From Maribacter sp. PR1 (GTDB taxonomy: Bacteria > Bacteroidota > Bacteroidia > Flavobacteriales > Flavobacteriaceae), in the NCBI RefSeq assembly GCF_028464145.1, contig NZ_JAQPCG010000003.1:186001-250000 (forward strand): DNA of 64,000 nucleotides, read 5' to 3'. A model generated the notes under the pieces. The model was not told the origin of the DNA. It did not search any database and saw only the letters and a list, made by a program, of their open reading frames with translations. Shown in pieces: positions 34,133 to 38,083 of the stretch (within the stretch, counting starts at the first letter, position 1; each line of letters begins with the position of its first letter). Both the position numbers and the translations under genes were made by a program.

Positions 34133-35059
34133 CTACTGCTTTGAAGCAAAACGTGAGAATAATGTTAATTTTTTCTTGGTGTTGATAAAATATACACCGG
34201 TTAAAAGTATAACGGCTGCTATTAAAGATTGTGCGGTTATAGTTTCATTTAAAAAGTACCAGCCCAATATCATGGCAATGATAGGGTTAACATAAGAGGA
34301 AGTCGCTACTTTTTCTGGTGAAACTACTTTTAATAGATAGTTGAATGCAGTAAAGGCGACTATACTGCCTAATAAAACGAGCAGAATCATAGACCATCTT
34401 ACTGGTGTGCTCCAATGCAAAGGAGAAATCCATTCTTCACCAATGGCACTACTAATTATGAACAGAAGTATACCACCGGTAACCATTTGATACCCTGTAT
34501 TTACAAAATAGTTTGGTGGAAGATCAGCTTTACCAACAAAAAGGCTTCCGTAGGCCCAACTGAGCATGCAGGCAAAGATTAAAATCATACCTAATAATGC
34601 ACCTTCCTGGGATATAATCTGTTTTTGACTAACCAAAAGATAAATCCCTATCATACCTAAACCCACCCCAACTAGGGACATGGGCTGGATACGCTTGCCC
34701 TGAAGTATTCTCATTAGTATTAAAACAACCAGGGGTTGCGCGGATATCTCTAAAGCGGCAAATCCACTGTCGACATATTTAAGGGCCCAAACTACTACCC
34801 CATTACCAAATGTAAGAAAGAGAAAACCTGCGATAATGCTATTTCCTAATTGTTTTTTGGTTACCGCTAACGAAATTTTTAAAAACTTCGCTATAACAAA
34901 GATGAGGCAACCCGCTGTAATAAAACGTATTCCTGCCAGCATAAAAGCAGGTAGCTCCGTAACAGCGATTTTGTTTAGTAGATATGTTGACCCCCATATA
35001 ACGTAGATGGCGAAAAAGGCCAAAATTATAAGACCGGTGTTACGTTTGGCTATGGTCAT
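34133..35059 (-). CDS. EamA (DMT superfamily) transporter
   Basis: A 308-aa inner-membrane protein with two tandem EamA domains and about ten helices. The first begins GLIILAFFAIYVIWGSTYLLNKIAVTELP; the end of the first repeat is VVVWALKYVDSGFAALEISAQPLVVLILM; the second ends in a VSPEKVATSSYVNPIIAMILGWYFLNETIT motif with a RhaT-like flavour. It exports a metabolite or drug of unknown identity. It is followed by a long gap and lies 20 bases downstream of the cold-shock gene. Confidence 0.9.
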   Translation of the reverse strand: MTIAKRNTGLIILAFFAIYVIWGSTYLLNKIAVTELPAFMLAGIRFITAGCLIFVIAKFLKISLAVTKKQLGNSIIAGFLFLTFGNGVVVWALKYVDSGFAALEISAQPLVVLILMRILQGKRIQPMSLVGVGLGMIGIYLLVSQKQIISQEGALLGMILIFACMLSWAYGSLFVGKADLPPNYFVNTGYQMVTGGILLFIISSAIGEEWISPLHWSTPVRWSMILLVLLGSIVAFTAFNYLLKVVSPEKVATSSYVNPIIAMILGWYFLNETITAQSLIAAVILLTGVYFINTKKKLTLFSRFASKQ

Positions 35060-35079
35060 TAATTAGTAATAAATAACCA

Positions 35080-35538
35080 CTAGATTTTCTTCACCCTAAC
35101 GGCATTCATTCCTTTCATGCCCTTTTCCAATTCAAAGGAAACCTTGTCATTTTCAAAAATCTCATCTATAAGGCCACTAACATGCACAAAGTACTTTTCA
35201 TTATTTTCGGAGTCGATTATAAATCCAAATCCTTTGGAAGAATCAAAAAAGGAAACCTTTCCTTTTCTTACCGGATCGAACTCTTCTTCGTCCCCTTCCT
35301 CTTTTTTAGGAATACCCAATACAATATCTTCAGCCTCTATTTCTACTTTCATAGATGGATCTGGCGGAGTGTCCACTAAGTTTCCGTTAAAGTCGACGTA
35401 AGCGAGCGGTATACCAGAAGATCCACTCTCCTTTGCAGCTTGTTTACGCGCCTCTTTCTTCTTCTGTTTTTCCTCCCTTTTCTTTAATCTTTTTTTTACT
35501 TTTTCAGTTTTGTTAAATGTTTGTTGTGATTTTGCCAT
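35080..35538 (-). CDS. Cold-shock-domain protein with basic N-terminal extension
   Basis: A 152-aa nucleic-acid-binding protein. The C-terminal ~65 residues form the cold-shock fold, with RNP1-like KGFGFI and RNP2-like YFVHVSGL and the strand RKGKVSFFDSS. The first ~45 residues are a Lys/Arg/Glu-rich helix (KKRLKKREEKQKKKEARKQ), then a flexible acidic linker. The extension makes it longer than the usual 65-70 aa CspA. It probably binds single-stranded RNA. An autonomous promoter is likely in the long gap before it. Confidence 0.92.
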   Translation of the reverse strand: MAKSQQTFNKTEKVKKRLKKREEKQKKKEARKQAAKESGSSGIPLAYVDFNGNLVDTPPDPSMKVEIEAEDIVLGIPKKEEGDEEEFDPVRKGKVSFFDSSKGFGFIIDSENNEKYFVHVSGLIDEIFENDKVSFELEKGMKGMNAVRVKKI

Positions 35539-35959
35539 TCGTAATTTTAATGTGGTGTTTCAATTTATATTAAGGAAGAATAGAAGTTCTAGTTTGACGA
35601 TTACTAAATGATATTTGCAGTGAGTACCGCCAAATGATGCATTTTTTAGGTCGGAGCAAGATTCCCCAGTTTTCCTTTAAACTTCCCCAAAGATAGTTCA
35701 TGTTTTACAATTATCGTATAACATATTGGAAGTATAACATTTTTCTACAACAATTCCATTAAAACGCTAGTTATTTTATTTAAGTTATTTTTAACATATT
35801 ATTTTAATATACTGTATTACAATTGTTTATGGCAAATTCCAAAGAATAATAATTTATATATAGTACCTTTTATAACATAGTACTGTAACAAAAGTATTCA
35901 TCTCTCGTCTTCTATATATAAACACAATATTATTATTCATCAATCTAAAAAATAAAGAC
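35539..35959. other. AT-rich intergenic region upstream of the micropeptide cluster
   Basis: This 421-base gap lies between divergent genes and should hold the promoter of the cold-shock gene and that of the micropeptide cluster. It is very AT-rich. An AGTAC element is repeated near 35862 and 35880. A TACCTTTT at 35864 loosely resembles the Bacteroidota -7 element but lacks a properly placed TTG. No longer ORF is seen. Confidence 0.35.
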
Positions 35960-36073
35960 ATGAGAACTTTTATTAAACAATCACCAACGGAAGCACGAAG
36001 ACACTCTTTCTTCAGCAATTTTAGAAACAGTAAAAGAGTGCAATGGGCAGAGGCTAGAAACCATACCCATTAA
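35960..36073 (+). CDS. Micropeptide family A, copy 1 (37 aa)
   Basis: A 37-residue basic peptide reading MRTFIKQSPTEARRHSFFSN, then FRNSKRVQWAEARNHTH and a TAA. It is too short for standard gene calling. Coding status rests on copy 2, 54 bases downstream, which is 31/37 identical without gaps, and on copy 3, which aligns without gaps over 33 residues. It has no signal peptide or membrane segment. The function is unknown. Confidence 0.75.
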   Translation: MRTFIKQSPTEARRHSFFSNFRNSKRVQWAEARNHTH

Positions 36074-36127
36074 ATTAAAATTCATCAATCAATCAGTTAA
36101 TTAATCATCAATTAAAAAACGAACGTC

Positions 36128-36241
36128 ATGAGAACTTTTATCAAACAAACACCAACAGAAATTAGAAGGCATTCTTTCTTTTCAACTTTTAAGAACAGTA
36201 AAAGAGTGCAATGGGCAGAGGTTAGACACCATACCCATTAG
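36128..36241 (+). CDS. Micropeptide family A, copy 2 (37 aa)
   Basis: A 37-residue peptide beginning MRTFIKQTPTEIRRHSFF and ending HHTH before TAG. It differs from copy 1 at six positions (S8T, A12I, N20T, R22K, A32V, N34H), mostly conservative changes. The spacer before it (CATCAATCAATCAGTTAATTA and similar) is AT-rich with short repeats and has no terminator, so the copies are probably on one transcript. Confidence 0.75.
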   Translation: MRTFIKQTPTEIRRHSFFSTFKNSKRVQWAEVRHHTH

Positions 36242-36270
36242 AATATCAATTCATCAATTAAAAACAATCA

Positions 36271-36286
36271 CCCGATAGGTATCGGG
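36271..36286 (+). repeat. Short hairpin before micropeptide copy 3
   Basis: CCCGATA and TATCGGG are complementary around GG, ending 15 bases before the ATG of copy 3. It could tune translation of the third peptide. The sequence has no T-tract, so it is not a terminator. Confidence 0.45.
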
Positions 36287-36301
36287 ACAAAATCAGGGGT
36301 T

Positions 36302-36430
36302 ATGAAACATCACAGAAGACTATCCCCAACCACTTCTAGAAAATTTGCTTTTTTTACTGGTTTGCCAGTAAACCAGAAAGTTCGTTGGGTAGCTGCTAAA
36401 GAGACCATCTCTTTAGTATCGGAAAATTAA
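36302..36430 (+). CDS. Micropeptide family A, copy 3 (42 aa)
   Basis: A 42-residue basic peptide beginning MKHHRRLSPTTSRKFAFF and ending LVSEN. It aligns to copy 1 from Met1 to residue 33 without gaps, with ten identities: M1, S8, P9, T10, R13, F17, F18, V27, W29, A32. Shared residues give a P-T-x-x-R-[RK]-x-x-F-F-[ST]...[RK]-V-[QR]-W core. An AGGGG lies a few bases before the ATG, an unusually good ribosome-binding-like site for this genome. A terminator follows. Confidence 0.72.
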   Translation: MKHHRRLSPTTSRKFAFFTGLPVNQKVRWVAAKETISLVSEN

Positions 36431-36438
36431 TAAAGCAA

Positions 36439-36472
36439 AAAAGGATAAGATTTAATCAATCTTATCCTTTTC
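36439..36472. terminator. Terminator after the micropeptide cluster
   Basis: AAAAGGATAAGATT and AATCTTATCCTTTT form a 14-bp perfect stem with a 5-base loop (TAATC). A-rich and T-rich ends suggest it works in both directions, also ending the convergent 36501 gene. Confidence 0.88.
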
Positions 36473-36500
36473 TATTTATGCTTAAGCGCCTAACTAAATC

Positions 36501-37292
36501 CTAATCTCTTAGGGTAATTTCTTCTTCAACGCCATTAGGGTAAGTGACCATAGCTACATTGTCACACGTGCTGTCACCAAAATCTACATTTACGGTAAGC
36601 CCGTTTTTGGAAACGGTCATATCGCCTTCAGCTATATAGCCACAAGTTACACTACTTGTCAATGGAGCGCTTACAGTAACATTGTAGGTGTTACCCTCGT
36701 AAACTACGGTCCATGTACCCGCTATACTGTAGGTTGTGGTTTCAGCAGAATCGCCAAAAGTGAGCGTAAAAGATCTATTTCCATCATCTGATATAATTGA
36801 GCCATCTGCCATTTCCACGGTCAACTCACTGGTAATTTCAAAAGAAACTGAATTCCCTTCTGTATCGGTACTTAATACATATGATCTAGTTCCATTAATT
36901 TTAATATCTCCAACATAAAAATCATCATAACTAGCAGAGAATGAACCTTGCTCGTTATTGGCATTATAGGTTACTGTTAATGTACCATTAATATTTTCCG
37001 TACCGTTTAGAACACAATTATTAAAGGTAGCGACATAACCCGTATCGGTATACTGGGCACTATAGCATTCATTACTCTGTGTCTTGTTCGTTGTACCTGC
37101 CGCATTGTACAGCTCAAATAATGCCACATCAATACCTCCGGTAATATCATCGGTTTCTAAAACAGCCTTAACATCGGTTTGGGTCAATACTACGTCATTA
37201 TTAGTTTCGGCATCATCACTACAGCTATAGGCCAAAAATAGGCCAGTGGCCAGAAAAGCTATTTTTTTCAATGTGTTTGTTACAATTTTCAT
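36501..37292 (-). CDS. Hypothetical lipoprotein, Ser/Thr-rich beta protein
   Basis: A 263-aa lipoprotein: signal with lipobox AYSC (Cys24), then an SDDAETNND acidic linker. The mature part is Thr/Ser/Asn-rich with alternating strands (YSAQYTDTGYVATFNNCVLNG, GTLTVTYNANNEQGSFSASYDDFYVGDIKING, SIAGTWTVVYEGNTYNVTVSA) that suggest a repeated beta-sandwich; several Cys residues could form disulfides. No family is recognised. It is the only gene between the micropeptides and the GntR regulator, and it diverges from the latter. Confidence 0.78.
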   Translation of the reverse strand: MKIVTNTLKKIAFLATGLFLAYSCSDDAETNNDVVLTQTDVKAVLETDDITGGIDVALFELYNAAGTTNKTQSNECYSAQYTDTGYVATFNNCVLNGTENINGTLTVTYNANNEQGSFSASYDDFYVGDIKINGTRSYVLSTDTEGNSVSFEITSELTVEMADGSIISDDGNRSFTLTFGDSAETTTYSIAGTWTVVYEGNTYNVTVSAPLTSSVTCGYIAEGDMTVSKNGLTVNVDFGDSTCDNVAMVTYPNGVEEEITLRD

Positions 37293-37425
37293 ATTTAATG
37301 GATTGTGGGTTTAAACAGTTAAAACGAAAAATTGATGTTTTTAGTGTAGCTCTCAAAAGTATGTTGTTGCCGTTCAACGAAAAATTATTCCTTTAATACA
37401 ACAATTAATATGAAAGTAAGTTTAA

Positions 37426-37437
37426 ATCGTATACGAT
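37426..37437. promoter_or_regulatory. Palindromic GntR-type operator candidate
   Basis: ATCGTATACGAT is a perfect 12-base palindrome ending 16 bases before the GTG start of the GntR gene. It contains the TNGTATACNA pattern that matches operators of FadR/FCD-type GntR repressors (general knowledge: TNGTNNNACNA and close variants), so autoregulation is likely. Confidence 0.6.
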
Positions 37438-37453
37438 ATATTATATTTACAAC

Positions 37454-38083
37454 GTGATTACAAAAATAAATCTAAGAGATCAGGTTAGGGATTACCTACT
37501 TTCCGAAATGAAAACCGGAAAGTTAAAAATTGGAAAAACCATAAATTTAGCGGCTCTATCAAGAGAATTAGGAGTTAGTGTAACACCGATTAGGGAGGCT
37601 CTTACCCAATTACAACAATCACATATTATAAAAGCAGTTCCCAATCGAGGATTTATCTTAGCCGAACTCGATGGTAAGGAATCCGAGGACTTATATACTT
37701 TAGTGGCCAATCTTGAGGTAATGGCCATAGAAAACTCCGACTTTGATGAAGATCAAATAGAAGCTTTAAAGCAACAACAAGAGGTATTTGAAAATGCACA
37801 CGATGCAATTTCCCGTATACAGGCAGATTTGGAGTTTCATCATTTATTGACCAAGGGATATCCAAATGATTTGGCACTAAAAATTCTAAAAGACCTCAAG
37901 ACTCGGATATTCTTTTATGAACGTGCTTTTACTGCGGACGACTCCTTTTACAATAAGTCCGACAACCAGCATGAAGCCATCATATCGGCCATAGAGGACG
38001 ATAACGTTCCTACGGCCTCCCTCCTATTAAAAATGAATTGGATGTTGATCTTAAACTATATTCAAAAGAAATTAACGGAGTAA
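37454..38083 (+). CDS. GntR family (FadR/FCD) transcriptional regulator
   Basis: A 209-aa DNA-binding regulator that starts at GTG. The winged helix (DQVRDYLLSEMKTGKLKIGKTIN, LAALSRELGVSVTPIREALTQL) covers residues 6-70; the FCD domain follows (DLYTLVANLEVMAIE, LEFHHLLTKGY, DNQHEAIISAIEDDN). The expected metal-binding His residues are present near 134 and 176, but the last one of the family is replaced in LLLKMNW. It likely controls itself through the 37426 palindrome; the effector is not predictable. Confidence 0.9.
   Translation: MITKINLRDQVRDYLLSEMKTGKLKIGKTINLAALSRELGVSVTPIREALTQLQQSHIIKAVPNRGFILAELDGKESEDLYTLVANLEVMAIENSDFDEDQIEALKQQQEVFENAHDAISRIQADLEFHHLLTKGYPNDLALKILKDLKTRIFFYERAFTADDSFYNKSDNQHEAIISAIEDDNVPTASLLLKMNWMLILNYIQKKLTE

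Follow-up and report, generated by a model that had tools for sequence, protein, structure and literature searches.

A flavobacterial family of tandem micropeptide genes behind a predicted extracytoplasmic-function-type promoter

The window analyzed here is a 64,000-nucleotide (nt) stretch of the Maribacter sp. PR1 genome (contig NZ_JAQPCG010000003.1, positions 186,001 to 250,000), and the element in question is a run of three short open reading frames on its + strand, which an earlier note made from the letters alone had described as tandem copies of an unrecognised basic micropeptide family. Frames of 37, 37 and 42 codons are present where that note had placed them. Copies 1 and 2 are identical at 31 of 37 residues in a pairwise comparison of the two translations, copy 3 shares with copy 1 the same ten residues that had been listed (M1, S8, P9, T10, R13, F17, F18, V27, W29 and A32), and the 14-bp terminator hairpin was also recovered. 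The extent originally given, 35960-36472, holds for the frames and the terminator; the unit itself appears to begin about 100 nt earlier, at a predicted promoter that lies outside those coordinates (35862-35910) and consists of an imperfect palindrome followed by TGTAAC-N16-CGTCT. The features are as follows, with expect values (E) taken against a profile without window rows.

35862..35884, + strand: putative operator, a 23-bp imperfect palindrome AGTAC-N13-GTACT (pattern match)
35884..35889, + strand: -35-like element TGTAAC (pattern match, fixed spacing to CGTC)
35906..35910, + strand: -10-like element CGTCT of the extracytoplasmic function (ECF) type (pattern match)
35960..36073, + strand: micropeptide copy 1, 37 residues, MRTFIKQSPTEARRHSFFSNFRNSKRVQWAEARNHTH; E 6.8e-20
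36128..36241, + strand: micropeptide copy 2, 37 residues; E 2.6e-19
36302..36430, + strand: micropeptide copy 3, divergent terminal member, 42 residues; E 0.0072 (search space 6302)
36438..36472, + strand: intrinsic terminator, hairpin with stem 14, loop 7 and a T-rich tail

The proposal that such frames fall below gene-calling limits is doubtful, since at 114-129 nt they are longer than the default minimum gene length of Prodigal, which is 90 nt.

The micropeptide family

Query P0001 had matches in 9 of 100 Flavobacteriaceae genomes, the window genome included. Profile A1 (36 rows, three of them from the window) had matches in 58 of 397 genomes and 37 of 237 genera of the same family, which is a lower bound because the search scored only part of the candidates in most genomes. 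No internal stop occurs among the A1 matches listed for these 397 genomes. Open homologous frames in this many genomes indicate that the three window frames are more than chance and belong to a real peptide family; the earlier note had named a lack of such homologs, or random stops in them, as grounds for refutation. In an order-wide sample A1 matched 7 of 395 genomes, five in Flavobacteriaceae and two weakly, with internal stops.

Merging 331 profile hits where flanks are identical gave 288 distinct members in 106 arrays, the window's included. In four of these members (L043, L087, L139 and L153) an ATG is missing from the expected position, a few run off the end of a contig, and some terminal copies have diverged strongly. 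The window genome carries a second array, of four copies, elsewhere. A pattern picked 161 of the 235 ungapped 37-residue genes as type A (159 unique). Nine type-A rows, scanned against species genomes, found 72 loci (of 115 pattern matches) in genera that include Maribacter, Arenibacter, Muriicola, Croceitalea, Croceivirga, Allomuricauda, Pricia and Euzebyella, with one record titled Cytophaga. Across the 36 rows of A1, W29 is invariant and K25 and R26 are conserved at 90% or more. Copies 1 and 2 keep this core and match the window-free profile strongly; copy 3 has the tryptophan, with QK in place of KR, and matches only weakly, so that it would count as a family member mainly by place and pattern.

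The description of the family as unrecognised is borne out by the libraries searched. Pfam gave no match for the three window peptides, the 36 rows of A1 or the 28 rows of A4, NCBIfam none for the window peptides or A4, and PHROGs none for A1; against solved structures the best A1 match had E 0.45 and A4 had none. Titles and abstract starts in the open-licence PubMed Central (PMC) literature yielded no description of such a family, five peptide strings of the family were absent from open-licence PMC text, and short sequence strings there gave, among the matches listed, papers unrelated by title. The searches returned no match to any known family or system, and the peptides and their arrays therefore appear to be new. 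A phage, plasmid or viral origin is not supported: P0001 has no match in phages and plasmids and A3 has none in viral contigs, in line with the PHROGs result.

Codon substitution, which had been suggested as a check, shows purifying selection on the predicted proteins. Among the 159 type-A genes the proportion of nonsynonymous differences (pN) was below that of synonymous differences (pS) in 12,560 of 12,561 pairs, which are not independent, with medians of 0.124 and 0.606. The median ratio of nonsynonymous to synonymous substitution rates (dN/dS) was 0.13 over the 9,236 type-A pairs with dS <2, and column entropy by codon position was 0.37/0.41/1.06. The 74 unique genes outside type A behave similarly (pN<pS in 92% of 2,701 pairs), as do copies 1 and 2 of the window (dS 0.594, dN 0.115). 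All 248 unique peptides carry a net positive charge (mean +5.9) and none contains a hydrophobic stretch (best 15-residue mean 0.65, median -0.57), consistent with the basic, non-membrane peptides that had been proposed.

The arrays also have distinctive starts. A is found at -13, -12 and -11 in 86, 94 and 92% of 283 array starts, compared with 41, 55 and 61% of 696 flanking genes, and A or G occupies -3 in 98% of the 283. Passages of a study of Flavobacterium johnsoniae report that A at -3, -6, -12 and -13 promotes initiation (PMC6847099). Codon use differs from that of the flanking genes as well (ATC 0.68 vs 0.25, TAC 0.64 vs 0.32), and strong start contexts combined with this shift suggest high expression.

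At least three copies are present in 61 arrays, 60 of which were analyzed; the other contains a cut copy. Non-last copies are 88% identical on average, whereas the last copy is 38% identical to them, and the outlier is the last copy in 53 of the 60 arrays and the first in four. Copies are thus seen to multiply in tandem while the last one diverges, a pattern that the copy order in the window matches. Terminator-like hairpins follow 61 of 102 arrays, as against 22 of 600 random stretches.

A predicted promoter and its candidate sigma factor

Ahead of the first copies lies a common layout, AGTAC-N13-GTAC[TC] followed by TGTAAC-N16-CGTCT, which by sequence is a predicted promoter of ECF-sigma type (-35/-10) with an added palindrome. 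The dyad occurs within 450 nt upstream of 69 of the 106 arrays; in these 69 the -35/-10 spacing is 16 in 65, 17 in one and unscored in three. Over 108 unique blocks the TGTAAC to CGTC spacing is 16 in 106 and 17 in two, where the pattern allowed 15-17. The palindrome half-sites agree at 7 of 11 positions in the window and at 7.39 on average in the 108 blocks, compared with 3.85 in control windows (control maximum 9). Exact AGTAC-N13-GTACTGTAAC occurs twice in the 4.7-Mb window genome, each time at an array; six more sites at two mismatches are about the yield of the reversed pattern (5).

The palindrome pattern was found in 51 of the 397 Flavobacteriaceae genomes, at 61 places (reversed pattern 2). 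Comparison of the match lists indicates that 31 of these genomes also match A1 and 20 do not, and the fair test of the promoter is provided by the latter, which were fetched by promoter alone. In 19 of the 20 the promoter precedes short basic Trp/Arg peptides with W...R[YF]-type ends, often in tandem and with a longer last one; in the remaining genome (L172) the gene behind it encodes a protein with an apparent signal peptide. The promoter search therefore revealed peptides that the sequence profile had missed, and offers a route to genes too short and divergent for ordinary search. Of all 107 promoter blocks that have 300 nt of downstream sequence, 104 show a peptide signature, as do 34 of 2676 random stretches, a comparison that is partly circular because most loci were fetched through peptides; two of the three misses, L143 and L191, carry peptides of the present family (family 1). 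In a class-wide sample GTACTGTAAC-N16-CGTCT occurred in 2 of 257 genomes, both Flavobacteriaceae; the second of these genomes, G138, encodes a single 41-residue peptide whose end is of the same type.

A second set of peptides, family 2 (28 residues, WN.KRRYR), shares this promoter with family 1. Its profile A5 has matches in 9 of 296 genomes from the order. Five of these have E <1e-10 and are all Flavobacteriaceae; the other four are weak, two of them lying outside that family and one containing a stop. Comparison of the two families by hhalign gave a probability of 5.7 and E 0.0067 over 16 columns. In L190 a single array combines two peptides of the family-2 kind with a family-1-like last copy, and in L168 and L177 a cold-shock gene is placed relative to the array as it is in the window. 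Given the same promoter and the same layout, families 1 and 2 could possibly be one superfamily. At L203 (G032:C1:335913) a frame, MKTLKQSSRSEWNSKRRYR, directly follows another gene without this promoter and is possibly the smallest member.

The ECF-type core by itself, TGTAAC-N16-CGTCT, has five sites in the window genome (reversed control 1). Two belong to the arrays, one to an ECF sigma operon and one to a gene for a 111-residue protein with an apparent signal peptide; the fifth has no clear gene. The sigma protein, P0004, contains Pfam Sigma70_r2 and r4, and the third gene of its operon is DUF4252-like (a 69-residue fragment, E 0.0016, below the Pfam cut-off). A single close match to P0004 is present in each of 30 genomes, which were chosen for arrays or promoter and include the window genome; leaving the query aside, these matches are 52-88% identical to it, and most of the genomes also have weaker paralogues. 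TGTAAC-N15-17-CGTC stands 51-97 nt before the sigma start in 25 of the 30, compared with 0 of 1506 control windows, and 18 of the 25 sigma promoters read CGTCT as in the arrays. Of the other five genomes, two show TGTTAC when read and two are altered at the -10, while for the fifth (L247) no start position was found. As the promoter core is common to arrays and sigma gene, a P0004-type ECF factor likely drives the arrays, and the array promoter resembles that factor's own autoregulated promoter with a palindrome added. Small proteins with apparent signal peptides also lie behind this ECF-type core in L172 (at 1518) and L252 (at 1500), perhaps a further family of sigma targets.

A stress link had been suggested on account of a cold-shock gene across the gap from the array. 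The cold-shock neighbor is not general: among loci L035-L217, many of which have short flanks, only L165, L168 and L177 have it, apart from the copies of the window itself. In L168 and L177 the gene and the array diverge, the arrangement seen in the window, and in L165 the gene is on the far side. A general cold-shock link was therefore rejected. A promoter of ECF-sigma type like that of the conserved ECF gene does speak for stress, so the suggestion seems right in spirit, pointing to the ECF factor and not to cold shock.

Proposed role and alternatives

Proteins of fewer than 50 residues are largely absent from bacterial annotation, and we know of few in Bacteroidota with a known function. 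The peptides form a multicopy family that is clearly under selection, and since a promoter, a sigma factor and an operator are predicted for it, it is directly testable. We propose that the locus is one operon of a micropeptide-array family. Under some stress, the ECF sigma factor would be released by the product of the gene behind it, a candidate anti-sigma factor by position only. The freed factor would transcribe its own operon and the arrays, while a second, dimeric candidate factor at the palindrome would confine or boost array expression. Tandem copies and strong start contexts would then yield a large peptide dose. The basic C-terminal motif (approximately [ST]K[KR]xxW...R[RN][YF]) would bind a polyanion, RNA or the ribosome being the likeliest, and the peptides would thereby modulate RNA or translation stoichiometrically under stress. 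This ECF-driven array operon is our best explanation as a whole, held tentatively and as slightly less than probable. A wider proposal is a promoter-defined system of Flavobacteriaceae, in which one ECF factor and one palindrome-binding factor would control several unlike sets of basic peptides (about 22-54 residues) as tandem dose units acting on RNA or ribosomes under stress, and in which the promoter would be more conserved than the peptides behind it; we regard this as possible, and on balance doubtful.

Several observations count against the ECF-driven operon. No dyad lies within 450 nt upstream of 37 of the 106 arrays, two of which have less upstream sequence; at least five (L062, L065, L076, L078 and L087) carry near variants, and others are of an AraC-neighbor type or a repeat type. 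The gene after P0004 is a weak anti-sigma match (Pfam RskA_C, E 0.089). Seven of the 25 sigma promoters read CGTCG or CGTCA, in genomes with other peptide types, and the sigma gene was picked via its promoter in the window genome, with a comparison that covers array and promoter genomes only. The RNA or ribosome target is a favored guess from charge and motif only; the conserved T10, E11, S12 and S24 could instead reflect a protein partner, and the AlphaFold model is poor (mean predicted local distance difference test score 66.5, predicted template modeling score 0.23).

Bacillus FbpA/B/C and ribosome modulation factor are likewise short, basic and regulator-controlled, but are not known to form tandem arrays and answer to other regulators; no Pfam family matched the array peptides, and the likeness would be an analogy in way of working only. 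The operons PG_0214-PG_0216 and PG_0985-PG_0987 of Porphyromonas gingivalis have the same order as the P0004 operon (ECF sigma, small second gene, DUF4252 or DUF4252-like). According to passages on these operons, both show raised expression in a PG_0686 mutant, and the rise is stronger when peroxide stress is applied (PMC10101095), and PG0985-87 appears in an iron-dependent list (PMC10434189); these passages mention no micropeptide array, and the likeness is one of gene order. Flavobacterial CGT-box promoters are described as induced when nutrients are low and as lying in front of an ECF/anti-sigma pair (PMC9723704). The ECF-type SM6 promoters of Flavobacterium psychrophilum have such a pair among their targets, a point of likeness to the array promoter, but as described there their targets also include genes of the type IX secretion system and the array promoter adds a palindrome.

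Among other explanations of the arrays, the peptides could be envelope modulators, basic aromatic peptides of an ECF envelope-stress response that bind the inner membrane face, lipopolysaccharide precursors or a secretion component. ECF sigma factors often respond to envelope stress, and one of the five promoter sites in the window genome precedes a gene with an apparent signal peptide. The SM6 promoters before secretion and ECF/anti-sigma genes, in the passages cited, may fit as well (PMC9723704), but the family lacks any hydrophobic stretch; we consider envelope modulation unlikely. Feedback regulators would tune the response by binding one of three proteins: the ECF sigma factor, whatever the next gene encodes, or the palindrome factor. 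This would explain why peptides and sigma gene have a promoter core in common and why the window genome has few other sites. Tandem dosage and several peptide types would however be unnecessary for this role, and 339 of the 397 genomes have no match to the first profile, which makes feedback quite unlikely.

The E. coli Ldr and Ibs micro-genes are tandem, dispersed and near-identical, as the arrays are, and a type I toxin array with antisense RNA could be imagined on this model. Ldr and Ibs, however, are hydrophobic and have antisense RNAs, whereas the array peptides are basic and polar and do not resemble membrane peptides, and antisense housekeeping-type promoter matches are not enriched (1 in 42,975 nt of arrays vs 63 in 728,062 nt of flanks). 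A toxin array is thus very improbable. Equally improbable are precursors of a modified or secreted peptide (a ribosomally synthesized and post-translationally modified peptide, a pheromone or a bacteriocin): tandem arrays with a differing last copy do look precursor-like, but cysteine occurs in only 12.5% of unique peptides and no gene accompanies most arrays, although the neighbors were not screened for modification enzymes in particular. Some DNA identity between the window's copies would suit a functional RNA, structured or regulatory, whose frames are incidental, a reading made scarcely credible by the codon-level selection and by an Rfam scan of 34800-37600, in which nothing came close to the gathering score. 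A leader-peptide attenuator was rejected for the window locus, where the gene after the terminator is convergent and not in the same direction.

Spacers, companions and neighboring genes

The spacer between copies has a median of 45 nt (182 gaps). Direct repeats like ACAATTGAGT-N12-ACAATTGGGT were found in 18 of 24 unique long spacers (110-160 nt) compared with 4 of 1500 random stretches, and a [TC]AnnTTTG box in 17 of the 24 compared with 106 of 1500; we take the repeats to resemble LytTR sites. Together, repeats and boxes make it seem that some arrays contain an internal second promoter. Long spacers with internal repeats are seen in, for example, L103, L114 and L129. A third upstream type, GCATAGCTCATACGGGTTGCTTC...ATCTTTGTACC, occurs at L043 (second array), L045, L086, L097, L098, L100, L111, L124 and L126, and an AraC-type gene adjoins some of these.

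Several arrays (L125, L118, L054 and others) have, within or ahead of them, a companion micropeptide whose core resembles RP[KR]IYFRIGFGWNTDR; its gene is often the one that directly follows the promoter. With a narrow pattern, companion peptides with a core like IGFGWNTD number 11 unique versions, seven of them 62-74 nt after the promoter.

The commonest neighbor gene cluster was near 16 of the 90 arrays examined. Genes for adenylate-cyclase-like, AraC-type, acyltransferase and LytTR-type response regulator proteins, labels that come from reading the sequences and not from a family search, recur beside only some arrays. The EamA or lipoprotein gene adjoining the window array also accompanies arrays under 19 further locus ids, among which at least two refer to a single place; this recurrence suggests that the window locus is old, and other array loci may be dispersed copies. 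In L045 and L098 the downstream genes share MKSKI[HY]E..LKLNN ahead of the apparent true start, perhaps a conserved in-frame upstream peptide.
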